From assembly GCF_003284725.1 (NCBI RefSeq), contig NZ_PGTO01000005.1, positions 124,001 through 188,000 on the forward strand: a DNA stretch of 64,000 nt, written 5' to 3'. Position numbers and translations under genes: made by a program. Position 1 is the stretch's first letter. Every line of letters begins with the position of its first letter. The notes below the pieces were generated by a model. The model was given only the letters and a program-made list of their open reading frames with translations. It was not told the DNA's origin and did no database searches. The stretch comes from Paramagnetospirillum kuznetsovii (lineage in GTDB: Bacteria; Pseudomonadota; Alphaproteobacteria; Rhodospirillales; Magnetospirillaceae). Shown piece after piece: positions 3,278-15,606 of this stretch.

Positions 3278-3401
3278 AATTTAGGGGGGGCGGCAGGGTG
3301 CGACCCAACCAATGACAAGCATCCGCCACGGGAAGATGGGCAAAGTTTTCAAGTTCGAGGCCGTATCGCGGCTCGATCACCCTTTGGTTACGGGGGAACT
3401 A

Positions 3402-5081
3402 GTGCTCGCTCGCATTTCCAATGCTCGTATCGCGGTCAAGGTCTTCATCGCGCCACTGCTTTTGGTGGTGTCTGTGGCGGTTTTGGGCCTTGTCTTCCAT
3501 TTCGCCATGAATCGCCAGGGCGCGGCCATGGAACGGATGGTGACGGTTTCCTTCGCCAACAGCCGCGCCGCCGCCGAACTGGACGGCGTGGCCGCCGCCA
3601 TTCAGTCCAATGTCTATCGTTTGCTGGGCTGGCAGGCGGCCAAGGAGGACAAGGACAAGATCAAGGCACTGGATGCCCAAATACGTGCCGACATGAAGAA
3701 CCTCGGGGACAAGTCGGGGGCGCTGTTCGTCGCGCTCGGCACCGATGCCGCCGCCGCCAAGCAGGTCAAGGACTATGGCCTGGCCGCTGGCGACGTGCTG
3801 GATATCTATTCGTCCGACCATATCACCGCCCTGTCCATGATGGGGTCCACCGAGATCGAATACGACGCTTTGCACAAATTGCTGAGCGGTCTTTCCCAGC
3901 AGGCGGCGGCCAAGGCGGCCGCCGACTATGCCGATACCTCCGATATCGCCAGCGCGGCCAAGGCGCAGTTCTTCCTGGTGCTGGTCGGCGCGCTGACGGT
4001 GGGCGCCGTCGTTACCCTGATCATGATCCGCCTGATCGCCGGTCCGGTGACGGCGCTCACCGAGAGCATGGGGCGTCTGGCCGGTGGCACCACCGAGGTG
4101 GAGATTCCCTCGCTGGACAATCAGGACGAGATCGGCGCCATGGCCCGCGCCGTGGCGGTCTTCCGCGACGGCATGGAAACGGCGGCCCGTCTTGAGGCCG
4201 ACCAGCGCAGCCAGCGCGAAAGTCAGGCGCGCCTGATCGCCCGGCGCGACGATCTGATCGCCAAGTTCAATGCGGCCATGGAAGGGATTTTGGCGACGGT
4301 GGTTCACTCCATCGAGCATGTCCACACCGTGTCCAATTCCCTGCAAGCGACCGCCGAACAGACCAGCCAACAGGGCGCCGCCGTGGCCTCTGCGGCGGAA
4401 GTGTCCGCCGCCAATGTGGCCACCGTGGCCACCGCCGCCGAGCAGTTGGGATGTTCGGTTCAGGAAATCAGTCGCCAGGTGGCCGAGACCACCACCATTA
4501 CCTCGGAGGCGGTGCAGGGCATCCATTCCGCCAATACCACCATGGACGGCCTTGCCGCCGCCGCCGGTCGTATCGGCGAGGTGGTGGAACTGATCAACGC
4601 CATTGCCGGGCAAACCAATCTTCTGGCGCTCAACGCCACCATCGAGGCGGCGCGGGCGGGCGAGGCGGGCAAGGGCTTCGCCGTGGTGGCGGGCGAGGTC
4701 AAGACGCTCGCCAACCAGACCGCCAAGGCCACCGACGAGATCGCCCAGCAGATCGCTGGCATCCAGTCCATCAGCCAAGACGCGGTCGAGACCATTCGCA
4801 CCGTCGGACGCACCATCGACCGCGTCAATCAGGTGGTGGCCTCCATTGCCGCCGCGGTGGAAGAGCAAAGCGCCGCGACCAGCGAGATCGTGCGCAGTGT
4901 TCAGCAGGCCTCCGACGGCAATGCCGAGATCACCCGCAATATCGGCGACGTGTCAAAGGCGGCCGGTGCCACCGGCGAAATGGCCGCCGACATGTTCAGG
5001 GCCGCCGACGAACTGGTTCACGAATCGGAATCCATGCGCAGCGAGGTGGGAACCTTCCTGTCGTCCATGCGACAAGGTTAG
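3402..5081 (+). CDS. Methyl-accepting chemotaxis protein
   Basis: About 559 aa from a GTG start at 3402, chosen because GGGGGA lies 5 nt upstream; ATGs at 3312 and 3345 are in frame but lack a good ribosome site. Order: transmembrane helix (about residues 10-32), a roughly 150-residue helical periplasmic sensor of four-helix-bundle style, a second membrane helix (about 186-208), a HAMP domain with a typical [16 protein letters not shown] end, and a C-terminal signalling hairpin whose tip reads [20 protein letters not shown] followed by [12 protein letters not shown], the CheA/CheW-contact region. No C-terminal CheR-tethering pentapeptide is seen. The ligand is unknown. The gene stands alone and ends at the first base of a dispersed intergenic repeat. 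Confidence 0.93.
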
Positions 5082-6322: not shown

Positions 6323-6652
6323 CTACAACGCGGCGAGGGCCGCTTGACGGTCGGGATAGATGGAGAGAATTTTGGCGAAGCCGGAGACGTCGAAGATTTC
6401 GCGGATATTGGGCTTCATGCCACACAGGACGAATTTCCGGGTGCCTCGGGTCATCTTGGCGCCGACCAGAACGACGCGCAGTCCGGCGCTGGAGATATAG
6501 TTCAGTTCGCTGAAGTCGACGACGATCTTCGCGGCGCCGCCATTGACGACGGCAAGAACCTTGGCCTCGAATATCTTGGCGGTGGAACTGTCCACCCTGG
6601 CCAAAGGCACCAGGACGGTGGCGTCTCCAATGATTTCCTCGCGAATTTCCAT
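6323..6652 (-). CDS. STAS-domain anti-sigma factor antagonist (RsbV/SpoIIAA-like)
   Basis: 109-aa single-domain STAS protein. The conserved loop reads LNYISSAGLRVVL, where the first or second Ser of ISSAG is the predicted phosphorylation site, and IVVDFSELNYI precedes it. In the partner-switching scheme the dephosphorylated STAS protein binds a HATPase kinase and releases its target; the kinase re-phosphorylates it and a PP2C phosphatase reactivates it. The gene starts 6 bp after the phosphatase/HATPase gene upstream on the same strand, so both opposing activities are encoded by its neighbour. It is the last gene of the five-gene operon. Confidence 0.92.
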   Translation of the reverse strand: MEIREEIIGDATVLVPLARVDSSTAKIFEAKVLAVVNGGAAKIVVDFSELNYISSAGLRVVLVGAKMTRGTRKFVLCGMKPNIREIFDVSGFAKILSIYPDRQAALAAL

Positions 6653-6657
6653 GAGCT

Positions 6658-9393
6658 CTAGCTCTCCTGCTCTCCGATGGTCTTGCGGAGGGTGGTCGTA
6701 TTCCGACCGGCTTCGTGCCGGTAGTCCGTCGTGTCCATGAACTCTTTCACCAGGAAGACGCCGAGCCCGCCAATGGGGCGATCATCCACATCCAGTTCCA
6801 AATCCGGCTCCGGAGCCTCGGTGAACGGATCATACTCCTTGGCGTCATCCTCGATCTCGGTCATGAACTCTACGCCGTCGTAACTGAATTTGACCACGAT
6901 GTCATGGGGCGCATCGTCACCATATCCGTATGAGATAATATTGGTGATCAATTCGTCCAAGCATACGTTCAGGTTAAACGACAGTTTTTCTGGCAATCCG
7001 TGCTTCTCGACGAAGGCGTCCACCTGATTGGCGAGGCGTTCCAGTTCCGCCACATCGTTGGTGATGGTGACGGACAGATGGTCGGGTTCCATGCGCTGCC
7101 GGGGCGGCGGCTTGGGCATTGGCGGTCGAATGATGCCTTTCAGGACCGCCACGGGGGCGGGCGGGGGGGGCGCAGGCGCTGGCTGAACTTCGGCCACCGA
7201 GGCGATCTCGGCGTCTCCCGTCCCCTTGAAGCCAGTCAGCATCAGGCGGCGCTGCGGCTCCGTCACCGTATCGCCGTCATTCGACGCTTGGTCGAATCGC
7301 AACGTCAGCATCGTGATGTCGTCGAATTGCGGGGCGGTTCTGACAAAGTCCTCCACCGATTTCAAGACATCGGCGATGACGGCTTCGGGATGGGTTTCCG
7401 TGATCTCGCCCAGATGGGTGATCAGCCGGGGTTCGTCGTAGAGTTCGTCGGCGCTGTTCTGGGCCTCGGTCACCCCGTCGGTGTAGAGATGGACGACATC
7501 GCCCACTTGCAGCATGAAGCTGCCGGTTTCGTAGTCCAGATCCTCCATGACGCCCAGCGCCACGCCGGAAACGTCGCGGATGGCATCCACCACGCCGCCG
7601 CCGCGCAAGATCAGGGGGGGAGGATGTCCGGCATTGCAGAACGCCACCTCGCCGGTGCGCGTGTCCAGGACACCATAGAAGCAGGTGGCGAACAGGGTCT
7701 GCGGATTGTCGCGCGACAGCATGGTGTTGACGAAGGCCAGGCATTCGCCGGGGCTGGATGACAGGGGGGCCACGGCCTTGACGAGGCTGCGGGTGATGGC
7801 GATGAACATGGCGGCAGGCACGCCCTTGCCCGACGCGTCGCCGATGACGAAGCCCAGATGGTGGTGATCGATCAGGAAGAAGTCGTAGAAATCGCCGCCC
7901 ACTTCCTTGGCCGGTACCATGGAGGCATGAATCTGGAATTCGTGGCGGTCGGGGAAGGGCGGGAACACCTGCGGCAGCGAACTCAGCTGCAATTCGCGGG
8001 CGAAGTCCAATTCCTGACGCAGAACCGCCAACTGGTCACGGGTGCGCAGGGCCTCGCGCAGGATTTCAACATCGCGGGTGCGTTCGGCGATCAAGGTTTC
8101 CAGGCGCTCATGCTGCTCGCGGATACGCGACGACATGGTCTGGAAGGCGACCGCCAGGACTTCCAACTCGCCCTTGCCGCCATCGGATTCACCGCTTTGG
8201 CCGGGTTCCCGATTGGACAGGGCCTCGATCTGCTTCAGATCCTCGAGCACGGCTTCCCGCGCCTCTTGCTCCAGCATCTCGGACAGTTTCAGCATCTGCA
8301 GGCGGATGAACAGCTCCTGACGGCGGCGCTGCCGCTCGCGGCGCTCTTCCAGCAGGTCCAGCTTGATGGCGTTTTCGCGGAACACGCCGACGGTGCTGGC
8401 GATGCGGCCGATCTCGTCATTGTCGTTCTGGACGTCCAGCGTCACCGAGGTGTCGCCGCGCGACAACGCATTCAATACCGTGATGGCCTGATCCAGCGGA
8501 TCGAAGGAGCGACGCAGATAGACGGAGAACACCGCCAGGACCAGAACCAGGAACCCGGCGACCGCGCCGATGGAGACGATACGGATCTGGTATTGGCGGG
8601 CTTGGGTCTCGGTGGAATCACGCACGCTGACCAGGGCGCCGATGACGCGGGACTGTCCGTCGATCAGTGGGAAGACCACCACCGAATAGAATTTGCTGTT
8701 GTCGTGCCATGTGTCCAGGCGGCTCTTGCGGACGGAAAGCTTGCCCTCGAAGATTTGCCAGAGCTGGGCGTCGGTGCCGTCGGTCATATGGCCGCCGCGA
8801 TCCACCAGATAGACGTCGGCGCCGGTGGAGGCCTTGAATTCGGCAATGGGCGGCTTCAAGTCGGAAACCAGCGTGGCCACGCCGACCGGAACGCCATCGG
8901 CCCCGATCAGCGGCAGCGTCAACACCACGATAAAGCGCTTGTCGCTGTTTTGCATGATGCCGGTGCGCGGCTTGCCGCTTTCGATGATGGCGCGGCTGGT
9001 GCCGGAATCCACCAGGGGCGCGTCCAACAGCGCCCCCCGCGAGGAGTAGAGCAATTCGCCGTCAAGCCCCGCGATTTCGTAATGGGCCACGGCGGCGCGG
9101 CGCGACAGGAATTCCGCGGTCGGGGCCATGGCTTCGCGGACCTGAGATGGGCTCCGGCGTCCGGCGGCGTTGATCATCTCGTGATTGGACACCAAGGACG
9201 GCGTCGCGGCATCCAGGCGCTGCACGGTGTTTTCCACCAGCTTGTCCCAGAAGATCTGCTGGCCGTTAAGGGTCGCGGTGGCATAGCGCTCGTCCGCCAG
9301 TTCCTCGCTCTTCAAGCCGGCGAAGGTAAGACCGCCCACCAACAGGGTATAGGTCAAGGTGACGATAAGGGTTACCCGCGTGCGAAGCAGCAT
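6658..9393 (-). CDS. Membrane sensor PP2C (SpoIIE/RsbU) phosphatase fused to an RsbW-like HATPase
   Basis: About 911 aa from the ATG at 9393, which has GGGGGGA just upstream; another ATG lies at 9405. Order: membrane helix (about 5-25), an extracellular Cache-like sensor (about 30-270), second membrane helix (about 273-295), HAMP (about 297-350), a Glu/Arg-rich coiled coil (about 355-490), a PP2C phosphatase domain (about 505-720: EVGGDFYDFF, GDASGKGVPAAMF, NAGHPPPLI, YTDGVTEAQN, FDDITMLTL hold the metal-binding acidic residues), a Pro-rich linker (about 740-780), and a C-terminal HATPase with N-box CLDELITNIISYGYGDD and glycine box IGGLGVFLV. It therefore combines a predicted phosphatase and a predicted kinase for the STAS protein encoded 6 bp downstream. 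The Cache/HAMP input suggests control by a periplasmic signal. Confidence 0.92.
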   Translation of the reverse strand: MLLRTRVTLIVTLTYTLLVGGLTFAGLKSEELADERYATATLNGQQIFWDKLVENTVQRLDAATPSLVSNHEMINAAGRRSPSQVREAMAPTAEFLSRRAAVAHYEIAGLDGELLYSSRGALLDAPLVDSGTSRAIIESGKPRTGIMQNSDKRFIVVLTLPLIGADGVPVGVATLVSDLKPPIAEFKASTGADVYLVDRGGHMTDGTDAQLWQIFEGKLSVRKSRLDTWHDNSKFYSVVVFPLIDGQSRVIGALVSVRDSTETQARQYQIRIVSIGAVAGFLVLVLAVFSVYLRRSFDPLDQAITVLNALSRGDTSVTLDVQNDNDEIGRIASTVGVFRENAIKLDLLEERRERQRRRQELFIRLQMLKLSEMLEQEAREAVLEDLKQIEALSNREPGQSGESDGGKGELEVLAVAFQTMSSRIREQHERLETLIAERTRDVEILREALRTRDQLAVLRQELDFARELQLSSLPQVFPPFPDRHEFQIHASMVPAKEVGGDFYDFFLIDHHHLGFVIGDASGKGVPAAMFIAITRSLVKAVAPLSSSPGECLAFVNTMLSRDNPQTLFATCFYGVLDTRTGEVAFCNAGHPPPLILRGGGVVDAIRDVSGVALGVMEDLDYETGSFMLQVGDVVHLYTDGVTEAQNSADELYDEPRLITHLGEITETHPEAVIADVLKSVEDFVRTAPQFDDITMLTLRFDQASNDGDTVTEPQRRLMLTGFKGTGDAEIASVAEVQPAPAPPPPAPVAVLKGIIRPPMPKPPPRQRMEPDHLSVTITNDVAELERLANQVDAFVEKHGLPEKLSFNLNVCLDELITNIISYGYGDDAPHDIVVKFSYDGVEFMTEIEDDAKEYDPFTEAPEPDLELDVDDRPIGGLGVFLVKEFMDTTDYRHEAGRNTTTLRKTIGEQES

Positions 9394-9427
9394 GCGTCCC
9401 CCCATCGGAAATTGGACCGAGCCCCGA

Positions 9428-10462
9428 TCATTTCCCCTTGCCCTCCGTCGGGTCGATGACCTCGGCCAATCCCAGCAGCTTCATGGGCGGGTAAAGCCCC
9501 AATTGGCGCACCACCGGCATGTTGATGATGATCGACAGCCGCTTGGGGGCGTCGATGGGAATCTCGGCTGGTTTGATCTTGTGCACCAGGATCTGTTCCG
9601 CCTTATAGGCGGTCAATTGCCCGACCGTGTAATAGCGATAGACACCGCCGAACATGGCCTTCGAGGTCAGAACCGGATTCTCGCCGGCCGCGAAAGTGGG
9701 AATGCCCTGCTCCAGAGCCGCCCCGGTCAGGATGTCGCGGTTGACGTTGAGGAAGGTGTCGGGGGGAATGTAGAGGAAGTCCACCTTCGCCTTCTTCAAC
9801 TCCGCCACCTTGGCCGGAATGCTGGCGGGATTGGGCTTGCCGTCCACCAGGTCCACCGACCGGCTGATCACCTCGAACCCCGCCTTGGCGCCGACTTCGG
9901 AGAACTCGCCGATGGCGACCTGGGCATTGCGTTCCAGTGGATTGAACACCACGCCCAGCCGTTTGAACGGCCGATAGGACTGGATCAGATTGGCCTGCGT
10001 CTCGGTGGGGACCAGATAGGTGGTGCCGGTGATGTTGCGCCCCGACGACGCGAAATCCTTGACCATGCTTCCCAGTGGCTGCGACACGATGGCGAAGACG
10101 GCGGGAATCTCGGTGATGTGCTTGTCGGCAGCGACGGTGTCCAGCCGACCCAGCATCTCCTCGCTGACCGTGGTACCCCAGGTGAAGACCAGATCCACCT
10201 CCAGCCGCTTGGCCTCGGCCACGAAGTCCTTCAGCTTGCTCTTGTCCTGGCCCGCGTCGCGGATGATCAGTTCGACCGGGATGTTCTGATTGGTGAAGTA
10301 GTCCTTGAACCCCTGGGCCGCCTCTTCCCATCCCCGCCACAGCGCCATGTAGATGCGGTAGGGCTTGGGCTTGGGCTCGGCGCTCCAGGCACCGGACGGC
10401 CAGATCGCCATGGCGGTCAGGGCGATCAGGAGGGCGGCAAGAAGAGGGCGGCGGGACGTCAT
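9428..10462 (-). CDS. Periplasmic ABC-type substrate-binding protein (PF04392-like)
   Basis: 344 aa with an N-terminal signal peptide (basic start, hydrophobic core LLAALLIALTAMAI, cleavage near AWSA-EP). The mature part is a type I periplasmic binding fold: YRIYMALWRGWEEAAQGF, VDLVFTWGTTVSEEML, SGRNITGTTYLVPTETQANL, LGVVFNPLERNAQV, DFLYIPPDTFLNVN and a C-terminal GGVYRYYTVGQLTAYKAEQI are typical of the ABC_sub_bind (TrpX-like) family. The start ATG overlaps the stop of the HAMP-MFS gene by 4 bp. No ABC permease or ATPase lies nearby, so it may serve as a ligand receptor for the adjacent sensors rather than as an importer component (inference). Confidence 0.88.
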   Translation of the reverse strand: MTSRRPLLAALLIALTAMAIWPSGAWSAEPKPKPYRIYMALWRGWEEAAQGFKDYFTNQNIPVELIIRDAGQDKSKLKDFVAEAKRLEVDLVFTWGTTVSEEMLGRLDTVAADKHITEIPAVFAIVSQPLGSMVKDFASSGRNITGTTYLVPTETQANLIQSYRPFKRLGVVFNPLERNAQVAIGEFSEVGAKAGFEVISRSVDLVDGKPNPASIPAKVAELKKAKVDFLYIPPDTFLNVNRDILTGAALEQGIPTFAAGENPVLTSKAMFGGVYRYYTVGQLTAYKAEQILVHKIKPAEIPIDAPKRLSIIINMPVVRQLGLYPPMKLLGLAEVIDPTEGKGK

Positions 10463-12543
10463 TCGGCCAGCTCCGCCTCGATATGGGGACCAGAGCCGTA
10501 GGCGAAGGACAGCAGGGCGAAGACCACGCTCATGCCGAGAACCACGGCGCCAAGGGCGATCACCGCGCCGGAGATGCCATAGATGGGAATGAAGGCGGCG
10601 GCCAGGAAGGGACCGATGACGCTGCCGACCCGCTCGGCGAGGCGCAGGAAGGCCAAAACATTGGTCTGGCCCATGTTGCGGCACTCGGTCCAGCAGATGT
10701 CTGGAATGATGGCCAGTTGCGGCGATGCCGACAGGCCGTGCGAGACGCCGAGCAGGGCAATGGAAACGCCGAGTACGTTGAAGTCGCCGCTCAGGACGGG
10801 GAGCAAGAGGCCGAAGCCGCCGATCAGGCCGCCCACCGCCACCAAGCCGGCCTTCCAGCCCATCTTGTCGGCCAGCCGGGCCGCCAGCGGCGACAGCAGG
10901 ACCACCGAGATGGGGTACATCATCATGATTCGGGCGATATCACCGAGGTCGTAGCCCGGCGTCTGGAGCAAGGTCAGCGGAACCAGGAAGAAGAAGAAGC
11001 CGGTCAGGGCAATCTTGCTGGGAATGGCTGCAAATGTGACCAGGGCGAAGAAGCGCCAATTGCGCAACAGAGCCAGGAATTCGCGCTTGCGCGGCGACAG
11101 GGGCTCCGCCTTCGGTTGGGCCGCGTCCATCAGACGATAGATCAGCAGTCCGGCAACGACGCTGAGGGCGGCGGCCAATACAAAAGTGGCGCGATAGCCC
11201 ACGCGCTCGGCCAGAACGCCGCCGATCCCGGTGCCGCAGATGCTGGCGGTCAGCACCGCGCCCACATAGACCCCAAGTCCCTGCGCGCGGCTTTCCCGCT
11301 GGGCGGCTTGGGCGATATAGCTTTGGCACGCCATGGTGACCAGGGCATAGCCGATGGCGGTCAGCGAGCGCCACAAGGTCAGATCGAAGACGTTGTCCGC
11401 CAGACCCGACATGAAAAATCCGACGGTCGCGGGCAGCAGTCCGATCAGGAACACGCGCCGACTGCCCTTGCGGGCCGAAATCATGGCGGCTGACGGCGAC
11501 ACGGCGGCGATGAAGAACATGAACACCGCGATGGGCAGCGCGATGGCCATTTCCTGGTCCAGTCCCGTGGAGGGCGTGTACAGGTCGCGGATGAAAAGCG
11601 GCATGAACGAGCGCGACATCTCCTCGGCGAAAACGAACAGGAACAGTGGAAGCCTGATATCCGTCGCCTGATGTTCGTTGATCACTTCCGGCTGGCCGGT
11701 GCGTGAGAACCGGAACAGGAAGCGCACCCGCGCTTCGATATCCATGACCCGCCCGACCACCGTCTTGTCGAAATGAGCGGTCTTGATCTCGTCCATATAG
11801 GCTTCGAGTCGACGAAACAGTCCATCCACATGACGGATGGCCCCGTTGAAGCCATGGACGAAGCGGCCGACCTCGTCGTCGGAGATGACGCCGCAGGTGT
11901 AGCCGAAGTCACCCCGGCGAACCCTATCCATCACCGTGGAGACGGCGCGAATGGGACCGATGACGTTGAAGGTGACGATAAACAGCAGGATTTCCACCGA
12001 TACCAGCAGGGAGCACAGGGTCATCACCCCGATATCGACGGCGATTTCCATCAGGCGGCTTTGGACGTAATCCTGGTCCAGCCCAACCTGGACATGGCCC
12101 ACCACAACGCCTTTCGACATCAGCGGCTGGGCCAGATTGACGAAATCGCCGATCAGCGACTTGCGCGATCCGCCCCCTTCGAAATCCGTTACCGAGAAAT
12201 AAGGGGTGAGCAGTTCGGGCATGGCGCCGTTGATGAACAGGATGCGGTTATCCCGATCCGTCACCGCCAGGTAGCGAATTTCACGATTGGCGGCGAGCAC
12301 GGGGGCGAAGAATTCGTCCATGCCCTGCAACTTATCCAGCGGGATGCCATAGCCGATGGCCCGCTCGATGCTGCTGGCAAGATCGCGGCCGACGGTTTCC
12401 GCCTTCTTGTCCATCTCCGGGACCAGCCCACGGGCGAATTCGCCCAGCGCGCCATGGGCGAGCAGCCCCACCGGAGGCACCAGCACGATGAAGGCCAGCA
12501 GCAGCAGTCGGATGAACAGGGGGCGGGTGTGGTCCAGTGTCAT
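10459..12543 (-). CDS. Cache/HAMP sensor module fused to an MFS transporter
   Basis: 694 aa from the ATG at 12543. Residues 9-31 are a membrane helix; 32-165 form an extracytoplasmic sensor (LAVTDRDNRILFINGA and MSKGVVVGHVQVGLD are Cache-like); 168-192 a second helix; 193-245 a HAMP domain (NVIGPIRAVSTVMDRVRRGD ... DDEVGRFVHGFNGAIRHVDG); then a linker and about 12 membrane helices of an MFS domain (297-690) with SARKGSRRVFLIGLL and ADKMGWKAGLV loops like the MFS A-motif. An N-terminal signal-transduction module on an MFS carrier is unusual. It lies 25 bp after the preceding sensor gene and overlaps the substrate-binding protein gene. No transport substrate can be assigned. Confidence 0.87.
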   Translation of the reverse strand: MTLDHTRPLFIRLLLLAFIVLVPPVGLLAHGALGEFARGLVPEMDKKAETVGRDLASSIERAIGYGIPLDKLQGMDEFFAPVLAANREIRYLAVTDRDNRILFINGAMPELLTPYFSVTDFEGGGSRKSLIGDFVNLAQPLMSKGVVVGHVQVGLDQDYVQSRLMEIAVDIGVMTLCSLLVSVEILLFIVTFNVIGPIRAVSTVMDRVRRGDFGYTCGVISDDEVGRFVHGFNGAIRHVDGLFRRLEAYMDEIKTAHFDKTVVGRVMDIEARVRFLFRFSRTGQPEVINEHQATDIRLPLFLFVFAEEMSRSFMPLFIRDLYTPSTGLDQEMAIALPIAVFMFFIAAVSPSAAMISARKGSRRVFLIGLLPATVGFFMSGLADNVFDLTLWRSLTAIGYALVTMACQSYIAQAAQRESRAQGLGVYVGAVLTASICGTGIGGVLAERVGYRATFVLAAALSVVAGLLIYRLMDAAQPKAEPLSPRKREFLALLRNWRFFALVTFAAIPSKIALTGFFFFLVPLTLLQTPGYDLGDIARIMMMYPISVVLLSPLAARLADKMGWKAGLVAVGGLIGGFGLLLPVLSGDFNVLGVSIALLGVSHGLSASPQLAIIPDICWTECRNMGQTNVLAFLRLAERVGSVIGPFLAAAFIPIYGISGAVIALGAVVLGMSVVFALLSFAYGSGPHIEAELAE

Positions 12544-12568
12544 GGCCGGACTCTTTGGATCTGGCGTC

Positions 12569-13405
12569 TCATTGCAGCCGGTCCAATCGGCCCACTTCCT
12601 CGGTGGCGTCGCGGATATGCTCGACCGCTTCGCGGGATTTGGCGACGAATTCGGCGAAGTGTGTCTCGAACCCGTCGCCGCCGGGCAATGCCGAGCCACC
12701 GGACGCCATGACGGCGTTCAAGGTATGCTCCATGCCCGTAAGCTTGCGGCCGACGCCGCCGAACAACACATATAGACCCAGCGCGGCCAGGGCTGAAAAG
12801 ACCGCCAGTTCCTCGGCGCCGGTCTTGAGCAAATGCAGCAACAGGCCGGTGACGCCGTGATTGACGTAGACGGCGGGATAGCGCAGCACCACTCCGCCTT
12901 CCACCTTGCCCAGATTGTTGACCAAGGGCAGGCCGACGATGAGATTGTCTTCGTCGGTGGTGCCGAAGGCTTGGGACGACCCGCCGCGGATGGCCTCGAT
13001 CAGGTCTTGGGGGACTTTGCTTCCGATGGCGCCGCGATCGGTGTCGAACAGCACCTCGCCGCGGGCATCGAACACTTCGACGGCGATCACCTGAGGATCG
13101 CGGGTCTTCTCGCGTTCCAAGACGTCCTGAACCTGCCGCAATTGCCGCAGCGCAAGACCCAGATTGAGGTTGTCCTCCACCCGCTTCTTGATGGTGAACA
13201 CCACGAAACTGTAGCGTGACTGCACCAGGGAGGAGTAAACGCTCTCGAATTTGTAGTAGGCAAAGAAGCCGGAGACCAGCAAGGTGCACAGAAGAATGGT
13301 GACCAGCGCCAGCGTGACCTTGCGCACAAGCGACCAGCGGACCGGGCGAGACGGCGGCAGACCGCTGGCGGCGGCGGCAGTGCTGGTCGGTCCGACTTTT
13401 TCCAA
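12569..13405 (-). CDS. Membrane-anchored Cache-like sensor protein
   Basis: 278 aa, probable TTG start with GGAGG upstream. A Pro/Ser-rich cytoplasmic N terminus is followed by a membrane helix (about 28-50), a periplasmic sensor (51-185) with the Cache-like core VIAVEVFDARGEVLFDTDRG and VEGGVVLRYPAVYVN, a second hydrophobic stretch (about 188-222), and a cytoplasmic helical tail (ETHFAEFVAKSREAVEHIRD) resembling the helix after a HAMP domain. There is no kinase or methyl-acceptor output domain, so it must act through a partner. It is the first gene of the operon leading to the HAMP-MFS, substrate-binding, PP2C/HATPase and STAS genes. Confidence 0.8.
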   Translation of the reverse strand: MEKVGPTSTAAAASGLPPSRPVRWSLVRKVTLALVTILLCTLLVSGFFAYYKFESVYSSLVQSRYSFVVFTIKKRVEDNLNLGLALRQLRQVQDVLEREKTRDPQVIAVEVFDARGEVLFDTDRGAIGSKVPQDLIEAIRGGSSQAFGTTDEDNLIVGLPLVNNLGKVEGGVVLRYPAVYVNHGVTGLLLHLLKTGAEELAVFSALAALGLYVLFGGVGRKLTGMEHTLNAVMASGGSALPGGDGFETHFAEFVAKSREAVEHIRDATEEVGRLDRLQ

Positions 13406-13581
13406 GGCCCTTGTTTCCTCCGCCGTCCGGCGATGCTAGACCACTAACTCCGAAGTGACGCGAGGAAGCTTATAGGATATGTGGCTGAGTTGTCCAAGAC
13501 TCCGCGACGACTAAACCCCGGCTTTCGTGCAACAACGCCACAGAACATCCAATCTTGCATATGACCAATGATGGGAAGCCA

Positions 13582-14439
13582 ATGTCGCAAGCCAAGCCGC
13601 ATACAGCATTAACCTTAGCCGCTCCTATGCGACGAGCCGACCCCATTGGTATTTTCGATTCCGGTGTCGGCGGATTGACCGTGGCGGCCGCCATCAGGCG
13701 CGTGATGCCCGACGAGAAACTGCTCTATCTGGCCGATGTGGCGCGCCAGCCCTATGGCACAAAATCGCCGCGAACGGTCACCCGCTATGCCGTTCAGGCG
13801 GCGGAATTTCTTGTCGGTCGGGGTATCAAGGCGTTGGTGGTTGCCTGCAATACGGCGTCGGCGGTGGCGCTGGAGGCCATTTCCGAGAGATTCCCGTCTC
13901 TTCCTGTGCTGGGGGTGGTCGAAGCCGGAGCGGCGGGCGCTGTCGCCGCCTCCGTCTCGGGGCGGATCGTGGTGGCGGCCACCGAGGGCACCTGCAAATC
14001 CATGGCTTACGAGCGGGCCATCGCCGGTTGGCGTGGCGACAGTCGGGTGACCTGCATTCCATGCCCGCTCTTCGTCGCCCTGGCGGAAGAGGGGCTGACC
14101 GACGGTCCCATCGTCGAAAGCGTGGCGCGCCACTATCTCGCGCCCTTGTTCGACGGTTCCGGCGGCGAGGATTGTCTTGTGCTGGGCTGCACTCATTTCC
14201 CGTTGCTGGCCGATGCCCTGGGACGCCTAGCGGGACCGAAGGTCCGGCTGGTGGATTGCGCCCAGGCCACCGCGACATTGCTGGTGGAAACACTGGCCGG
14301 ATGCGAGGCTCCTGCCGACACCGGCGGCGGCCTCACCCTCATCGCCACCGATGCGCCCGAGCGCTTCTCGCGGATCGCCCAGCGACTGTTTCCCACCATG
14401 GACGAGGCATCGCGGGTGGAACTGGCGGACCTCTTCTAG
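13582..14439 (+). CDS. murI: Glutamate racemase
   Basis: 285 aa from the ATG at 13582 (GGGAAG upstream); a TTG at 13555 is also in frame. Converts L-glutamate to D-glutamate for peptidoglycan. Family motifs are all present: IGIFDSGVGGLTVAAAIR near the N terminus, YGTKSPRTV, the first catalytic Cys in VVACNTASAVAL, and the second in CLVLGCTHFPLLADAL. It is convergent with rodA (3 bp between stops), next to the cell-wall elongation cluster. Confidence 0.95.
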   Translation: MSQAKPHTALTLAAPMRRADPIGIFDSGVGGLTVAAAIRRVMPDEKLLYLADVARQPYGTKSPRTVTRYAVQAAEFLVGRGIKALVVACNTASAVALEAISERFPSLPVLGVVEAGAAGAVAASVSGRIVVAATEGTCKSMAYERAIAGWRGDSRVTCIPCPLFVALAEEGLTDGPIVESVARHYLAPLFDGSGGEDCLVLGCTHFPLLADALGRLAGPKVRLVDCAQATATLLVETLAGCEAPADTGGGLTLIATDAPERFSRIAQRLFPTMDEASRVELADLF

Positions 14440-14442
14440 GGA

Positions 14443-15606
14443 CTATTCCTCGCCCAGGCCGCGCCGCGAGATGGGCATGTCGCGGTGGATATAGGCGCTC
14501 ATCACCAGCCCCCAGCCCGCCAGCAGCGACAGCATGGCGGTGCCGCCATAGGAGATCAGCGGCAAGGGCACGCCCACCACCGGCACCAATCCCATCACCA
14601 TGGCGGTATTGATGAAGAAATACAGGAAGAAGGTGGTGGTGATGCCGTGGGCCACCAGCCGACCGAACTGGCTGCGGCAGCGGATGGCGATGGCGTAGCC
14701 GAACGCCAGCAATAGGCCGTAGAGGCCCAGCAGGACGAGGCCTCCCATCATTCCCCATTCCTCGGCGAACATGGTGAAGATGAAGTCGGTCTGCTTTTCC
14801 GGCAGGAAGTTGAGCCGACTTTGGGTTCCCATCATGTAGCCCTTGCCGAACATGCCGCCGGAACCCAACGCGATCTTGGACTGGGTGATGTGATAGCCGG
14901 CGCCCAAAGGGTCGTCTTCCGGATTCATGAAGATCAGAACCCGCTTCTTCTGGTATTCGCGCAGGAACTGCCACGCCACCGGAATGGCGGCCAGCCCTCC
15001 GGCGATGACCACGACGAATTTCCAGATGCGCACCCCGGCCATGAAGAACAGGGCGCCCGACGACAGCACCAGCATCATGGCGGTGCCCAGGTCGGGCTGC
15101 TTCAGCACCAGGGCGGCGGGCGCGAAGACCATGATCAGCGGTGGGATCAGGAATAGCGGGCGGCCGATCTCTTGATAGCCTGCGCCGTGAAAATAGCGCG
15201 CCAGCGACAAAATCAAGGCGATCTTCATGATTTCCGAGGGCTGCAACTGGATGAAGCCGATATCGATCCAACGCTGCGCCCCCATGCCGACCGTGCCCTT
15301 GATCTCGACCGCGACCAGCAGAACGAAGGCGACGGCGTACAAGATGTAGGCGTTGCGCACCCAAAAGCGCAAATCCACCAGGGCCACGGCGATCATGATT
15401 GCGATGCCGATGCCGAAGCGGATGATCTGCTTCATGGCCCAAGGGTCCAGCGATCCCTGGGCCGCCGAATACAAGGTGGCGAAGCCGATGCCGGCAATGG
15501 CGGACAGCACCGCGATCAGCGACCAGTTGATCTGCCACACCTTGTCGCGCACCGACATTTCGGTGCGGTTGAGCCGCGACGGCATGCGAGGCATGGGCCG
15601 CAGCAT
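14443..15606 (-). CDS. rodA: Rod-shape peptidoglycan polymerase RodA (SEDS family)
   Basis: 387 aa, about 10 membrane helices. SEDS signatures: WAMKQIIRFGIGI early, the GAQRWIDIGFIQLQPSEIMK block, KQPDLGTAMMLV, and near the C terminus TAMVMGLVPVVGVPLPLISYGGT. RodA is the glycosyltransferase of the elongasome and works with the PBP2 encoded just upstream; the rodA ATG overlaps the last base of that gene. Last gene of the mre cluster. Confidence 0.96.
   Translation of the reverse strand: MLRPMPRMPSRLNRTEMSVRDKVWQINWSLIAVLSAIAGIGFATLYSAAQGSLDPWAMKQIIRFGIGIAIMIAVALVDLRFWVRNAYILYAVAFVLLVAVEIKGTVGMGAQRWIDIGFIQLQPSEIMKIALILSLARYFHGAGYQEIGRPLFLIPPLIMVFAPAALVLKQPDLGTAMMLVLSSGALFFMAGVRIWKFVVVIAGGLAAIPVAWQFLREYQKKRVLIFMNPEDDPLGAGYHITQSKIALGSGGMFGKGYMMGTQSRLNFLPEKQTDFIFTMFAEEWGMMGGLVLLGLYGLLLAFGYAIAIRCRSQFGRLVAHGITTTFFLYFFINTAMVMGLVPVVGVPLPLISYGGTAMLSLLAGWGLVMSAYIHRDMPISRRGLGEE

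Follow-up and report, generated by a model that had tools for sequence, protein, structure and literature searches.

A single uninterrupted open reading frame at positions 10459..12543 on the minus strand of the window (the whole 64,000-nucleotide stretch of Paramagnetospirillum kuznetsovii DNA that was analysed) encodes a 694-residue protein in which a first transmembrane helix (TM1), a single Cache domain, a second transmembrane helix (TM2), a HAMP domain and an MFS carrier follow one another. Its gene belongs to a cassette of three, together with the gene of a second Cache-like protein, hereafter sens, and that of an ABC_sub_bind periplasmic binding protein, and this cassette recurs across the Pseudomonadota. 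We propose, at roughly even confidence, that the products form a signal-controlled transport complex in which the binding protein and the paired Cache domains would control the MFS carrier, with optional coupling to a phosphatase switch. The partner set, namely the second Cache protein, the binding protein and often SpoIIE, HATPase and STAS components, went unseen in the initial annotation, and its conservation turns the question from one about an odd fusion into one about a multi-component system.

Domain architecture of the Cache-HAMP-MFS protein

The initial annotation had described an uninterrupted frame without giving its strand. On the minus strand the frame indeed codes for 694 residues, beginning with the N terminus MTLDHTRPLF, and a plus-strand reading of the same interval meets internal stops. 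The domain order it had put forward, a Cache domain and two membrane helices followed by HAMP and a 12-helix MFS domain, agrees with profile matches in relatives and with AlphaFold2 models. All parts being on the minus strand, the Cache domain spans about residues 34-165 (12049..12444), TM2 about residues 171-193 (11965..12033), with D170 just ahead of it and E184 in mid-membrane, and HAMP about residues 193-240 (11824..11967). A linker at residues 241-292 (11668..11823) leads to the carrier domain, residues 293-682 (10498..11667).

The predicted structure supports the Cache-TM-HAMP arrangement. In an AlphaFold2 model of residues 1-300 (pLDDT 91.8), the Cache sheet lies between two long helices and the region has the long N-terminal helix and the PAS-like sheet between two transmembrane helices that characterize a single Cache domain. 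The modelled TM2 helix (157-209) runs on into the first HAMP helix and is followed by a connector and the second HAMP helix (224-256), and the linker is predicted to be mainly helical (224-256 and 260-276). This model finds its best structural match in WalK (Z 14.4, residues 1-261), through an entry that includes HAMP and is itself an integrative model, the crystal structures reaching the Cache part alone. Crystal structures of KinD, DctB, CitA and DcuS come next and match the Cache part, for which LuxQ is also among the matches.

At the level of sequence profiles the sensor module of this protein stays sub-threshold. HAMP (PF00672) matches residues 193-234 with 16.7 bits, below the 25-bit Pfam cut-off, and sCache_3_2 reaches 14.8 bits, likewise below its cut-off; among 28 relatives, this protein included, the two were matched in 11 and 12, respectively. 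Of the HAMP and MFS profiles for which the initial annotation suggested a joint search, MFS_1 matches here (residues 301-616, E 1.1e-38); HAMP exceeded its cut-off in two relatives, at loci L045 (25.8) and L046 (25.2). The hallmarks of HAMP are nevertheless present, that is, a helix continuing from TM2, a conserved proline (P197) and a DExG motif (223-226) opening the second helix. The NCBIfam model HK_near_YfiR_like matched residues 132-239 (7e-9) and the WalK and NarQ models matched more weakly, all of them under their curated cut-offs. When the family profile was compared with PDB sequences, HAMP-bearing receptors and kinases were retrieved, the best being an aromatic acid chemoreceptor with a modest 1.9e-4, followed by weaker matches to NarQ, HtrII and AF1503.

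The carrier part is clearly an MFS fold. A full-length model (pLDDT 86.8, pTM 0.81) places it near NorA, VMAT and MdfA, with a TM-score of 0.82 against NorA by target length, and its best NCBIfam profiles are those of drug efflux-type antiporters. As the initial annotation had stated, the transporter is the sole covalent output domain; Pfam finds MFS_1 and no kinase.

A conserved cassette and its neighbours

The sens gene (12569..13405, minus strand) lies upstream of the MFS gene in the same direction. It encodes 278 residues with TM1, a Cache-like domain, TM2 and a short cytoplasmic tail. Its comparison with the Cache-HAMP module of the MFS protein (profile-profile probability 98.5, E 3.7e-15) identifies sens, on sequence grounds, as a paralogue of that protein's own sensor module. 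Downstream of the MFS gene, three more genes follow on the minus strand. The first encodes the binding protein (9428..10390), which has a signal-peptide-like N terminus, matches PF04392 well above the cut-off (E 1.1e-20; 74.6 bits against 25.9) and resembles the PDB entries 6hni (2e-17), 3lkv and 3lft. The second (6658..9405) encodes a 915-residue protein with a Cache-like sensor, HAMP (8.4e-9), SpoIIE (2.6e-50) and a C-terminal RsbW-type HATPase_c_2 domain (3.5e-24), dCache_3 being sub-threshold in Pfam. The third (6323..6652) encodes a 109-residue anti-anti-sigma-type STAS protein (Pfam STAS 2.3e-13), for which the NCBIfam ant_ant_sig model also scored above its cut-off. A SpoIIE phosphatase, a HATPase_c_2 kinase and a STAS substrate are thus encoded together, as in an RsbU/RsbW/RsbV-type gene set.

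In the ORF table the five genes are separated by 5 to 68 bases, so that they look like one operon. The Pfam scan revealed no ABC permease or ATPase gene among the operon genes at 6323-13405, and membership of the operon in the ABC transporters was therefore rejected. Elsewhere in the window, the ORF list contains a chemoreceptor-like frame at 3312-5081 on the plus strand. The genome from which the window comes has eight SpoIIE hits and a single PF04392 gene, which adjoins the present MFS gene, one of 20 MFS_1 hits there. PF04392 had no match in two genomes of the same genus (G847 and G180), in the second of which the best match to the MFS protein reached merely E 7.3e-4.

In all, 63 loci were collected by a tblastn-confirmed scan, by an order-wide search and, using an N-terminal profile, by searches at the level of class and phylum. 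They share descent, so that the counts given here do not represent independent events. A separate sens gene neighbours the MFS gene in 55 of them and the binding-protein gene does so in 60, the loci without a separate partner being sens-MFS fusions or stretches that reach a contig end. Overlaps of 4 nt are frequent among the three genes. More than 30 families, in the Alphaproteobacteria and elsewhere in the Pseudomonadota, are represented, and some of the loci are on megaplasmids of Vibrio and Azospirillum. The cassette is retained at identities as low as about 30%. Outside the Pseudomonadota, where sampling was very sparse, the sole match (L015, Omnitrophica) corresponds to the HAMP region of another protein. 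At loci L111 and L112, sens, Cache-HAMP and MFS form one protein of 855 residues, followed by an overlapping binding-protein gene, and two sensor modules precede the MFS domain in L062, L073, L074 and L113. Such natural sens-MFS fusions support a physical partnership.

The association with SpoIIE is looser. A SpoIIE gene was found nearby in 31 of the 63 loci and none in the other 32 within the stretch read, which was short in some cases. Genome G301, which is 99% complete, harbors the complete trio, and a genome-wide search of it gave no SpoIIE match. At L118 and L119 the trio lacks a linked SpoIIE gene, and the single SpoIIE found elsewhere in each genome scores much lower with the cassette SpoIIE profile (E 1.8e-34 and 4.6e-34, respectively, against about 1e-70); neither sens nor Cache-HAMP-MFS neighbours these distant genes. 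The three-gene cassette itself contains no kinase, cyclase or phosphatase domain.

Six loci (L101, L102, L104, L106, L113 and L125) carry a second pair made of a sens2 gene and a gene for a Cache-HAMP protein whose membrane part is either divergent MFS-like or an unrecognised multi-helix region. This pair adjoins a guanylate cyclase gene in L101 and SpoIIE in the other five, and in L103 the Cache-HAMP module forms, by fusion, part of the SpoIIE protein itself. The L101 cyclase, itself a Cache-HAMP protein (12980-15163), stands where SpoIIE would otherwise adjoin the second sens/MFS-like pair, suggesting that outputs are interchangeable. The Cache-HAMP-type proteins with divergent or unrecognised helices beside SpoIIE in L102 (12137-14164), L106 (5028-7202), L113 (4185-6392) and L125 (4275-6155) are possibly carriers that have turned into transducers.

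Proposed transport control and the alternatives

Conservation was examined in 41 relatives. The acidic residues of the TM2 region are almost always retained (D170 in 38, E184 in 39), as are P197 of HAMP (37) and, less strictly, the DExG glutamate E224 (31). Near-invariant acidic positions of this kind would be unusual in a receptor helix. E184 is kept in MFS-fused forms, whereas the SpoIIE-fused form of L103 lacks an equivalent residue, which is consistent with a contact between TM2 and the MFS domain, and D170 and E184 may, judging from sequence, be the mark of such a contact. Within the MFS domain, the ionisable residues E308 (38 of 41), R634 (39), E637 (40) and R638 (39) are equally conserved. 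Moreover, the Azospirillum protein WP_014189087.1, a stand-alone homologue of 505 residues that matches the MFS domain at 41%, has the MFS part and a TM2-like helix without Cache or HAMP. Taken together, the conserved ionisable residues, a fold like that of H+-coupled carriers and a stand-alone homologue suggest that the MFS domain is a real carrier. Stand-alone MFS genes near the carrier domain, without Cache-HAMP, also occur on Azospirillum plasmids at L115 (7734-9251) and L116 (5698-7200), both adjoining FeoA/FeoB, an alpha/beta hydrolase and a histidine phosphatase family protein; these neighbours are a possible hint to the substrate.

We therefore consider how the parts might work together. 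Sens and the module at the N terminus of the MFS protein would form the outer sensor together with the periplasmic ABC_sub_bind protein. We infer that sens and the MFS protein pair as sensors, probably via their Cache and HAMP-side parts, and that the binding protein docks on them. A ligand-dependent motion would pass from TM2 through HAMP to the MFS carrier and set the transport of a putative substrate on or off. Where the SpoIIE, HATPase and STAS genes are present, the same signal would probably be relayed to, or sensed in parallel by, the phosphatase-kinase partner switch. A carrier gated by an extracytoplasmic signal, one of the two possibilities raised in the initial annotation, is the reading that appears to fit the sequence data best. 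Indeed, the cassette has no kinase, cyclase or phosphatase of its own and the trio occurs in the SpoIIE-less G301, which leaves the MFS domain as the only effector common to all; this favours transport control as the core function and partner-switch coupling as an add-on.

Three observations speak against this proposal: the loss of the motif-A aspartate, the weakness of HAMP and the likeness of the MFS domain to drug/H+ antiporters. Motif A, which places an aspartate in the helix 2-3 loop, is common among MFS proteins without being universal; its aspartate site is occupied by A357 in the 694-residue protein and by D or E in 22 of the 41 relatives, and its second-half counterpart, D559, is kept in 39. 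Since HAMP is weak here, degenerate in some members and absent in L076, HAMP-mediated gating may not be universal. The antiporter likeness sits badly with simple uptake fed by a binding protein, and with H+-coupled antiporters as the nearest folds, export or exchange would be as likely as uptake.

The other possibility raised in the initial annotation, a transporter acting as a transducer, competes seriously with this proposal, given that what looks like the same operon goes on to encode a SpoIIE partner switch. The MFS domain would then be mainly a receptor; Cache-HAMP would report its occupancy, and that of the binding protein, to the SpoIIE phosphatase, and dephosphorylation of the STAS protein by this enzyme would alter gene expression or second-messenger output. 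The nearby SpoIIE gene of 31 loci, the missing motif-A aspartate, the second sensor pairs beside SpoIIE or a cyclase and the SpoIIE-fused module of L103 all accord with this explanation. However, the SpoIIE protein carries a sensor and a HAMP domain of its own, the carrier residues of the MFS domain are still conserved, and a role as transducer only is weakened by the trios that lack a nearby SpoIIE gene, about half of the loci, and by that of G301, which lacks any match. We regard it as possible, though rather unlikely.

Less probable still, and in our opinion quite doubtful, is a binding-protein-dependent MFS importer following a TRAP-like logic, with the Cache parts as docking scaffolds that have no signalling role. 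The near-constant presence of the binding-protein gene and an operon devoid of ABC permease and ATPase genes would be expected of such an importer, but both HAMP and the Cache fold serve in signal transduction, the MFS domain resembles efflux-type antiporters, and docking needs fewer than two Cache modules. Finally, that a sequencing or assembly error fused two genes, an idea that only the unusual architecture could recommend, is ruled out with near certainty, since the fused frame is uninterrupted at each of the 63 loci, which stem from many independent assemblies, and the differences from four close relatives in the linker fall mostly at third codon positions (e.g. 5, 5 and 22 for the three positions), as in coding sequence. 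At L012 (9001-12948), the MFS frame extends into an open frame of 1315 residues in which homology ends near residue 661, probably owing to a frameshift in that assembly.

Comparison with known systems

The outputs known for HAMP domains are kinases, cyclases, phosphatases and chemotaxis tips, and we know of no earlier case of a transporter as direct HAMP output, nor of an MFS protein with a dedicated periplasmic binding protein. If the carrier is a covalent HAMP output, HAMP signalling would extend to the direct control of transport; if the MFS protein works with the binding protein, binding-protein-dependent secondary transport would gain a new type of carrier. The case for greater novelty depends on either of these holding, and both can be tested since the cassette is present in cultured bacteria (Azospirillum, Paramagnetospirillum). 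We found no description of a Cache-HAMP-MFS protein in the open-access literature, a scope outside which most subscription papers lie, and HAMP plus MFS_1 architectures may already be listed in domain databases. It is conceivable, though less likely than not, that the binding protein and a Cache heterodimer switch the MFS carrier and that degenerate MFS copies serve as transducers for SpoIIE phosphatases or cyclases.

WalK, KinD and DctB share the TM1-Cache-TM2 layout and fold, and WalK also has HAMP after TM2, whereas the output here is an MFS carrier and the acidic residues of TM2 are conserved. In systems of the LuxP-LuxQ type, a periplasmic binding protein docks on a Cache-like membrane sensor; a binding protein and a Cache-fold sensor are common to both, but LuxQ ends in a kinase and the present protein in a carrier. 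The DHA-type antiporters NorA and MdfA, and VMAT too, have the same carrier fold and supply the best NCBIfam profiles, yet here a Cache-HAMP module is added, motif A is partly degenerate and a binding protein is encoded next door. RsbU/SiaA-type switches likewise encode a SpoIIE phosphatase, an RsbW-type HATPase and a STAS protein together, while in the window a single protein combines the phosphatase with the HATPase, and its gene is linked with a transporter cassette.

TRAP and TTT are the binding-protein-dependent secondary carriers known to us, and like the present cassette they link a secondary carrier genetically to a periplasmic binding protein. In contrast to them, the carrier here belongs to MFS_1 instead of having DctM/DctQ-type membrane subunits as in TRAP, the binding protein comes from the ABC_sub_bind family and two Cache modules are extra. 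A review covers ABC and TRAP systems and cites TTT, MFS appearing solely in its reference list (PMC8276074). According to a survey of binding proteins, these both feed transporters and stimulate receptors (PMC9602780), a dual role that would suit, by analogy, a system made of sens, an MFS carrier and a binding protein.

The SLC5/STAC histidine kinases CbrA, CrbS and RpuS likewise join a carrier to signalling parts within a single chain, but with the carrier N-terminal and a kinase as output (PMC9100948), whereas in the present protein the sensor is N-terminal, the carrier comes last and there is no kinase. MFS takes the place of SLC5, and the Pfam scan of the 694 residues gave neither a STAC nor a kinase domain, which sets the protein outside that family. 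The closest concept is still an SLC5/STAC sensor kinase, with its domain order reversed and another carrier in place.
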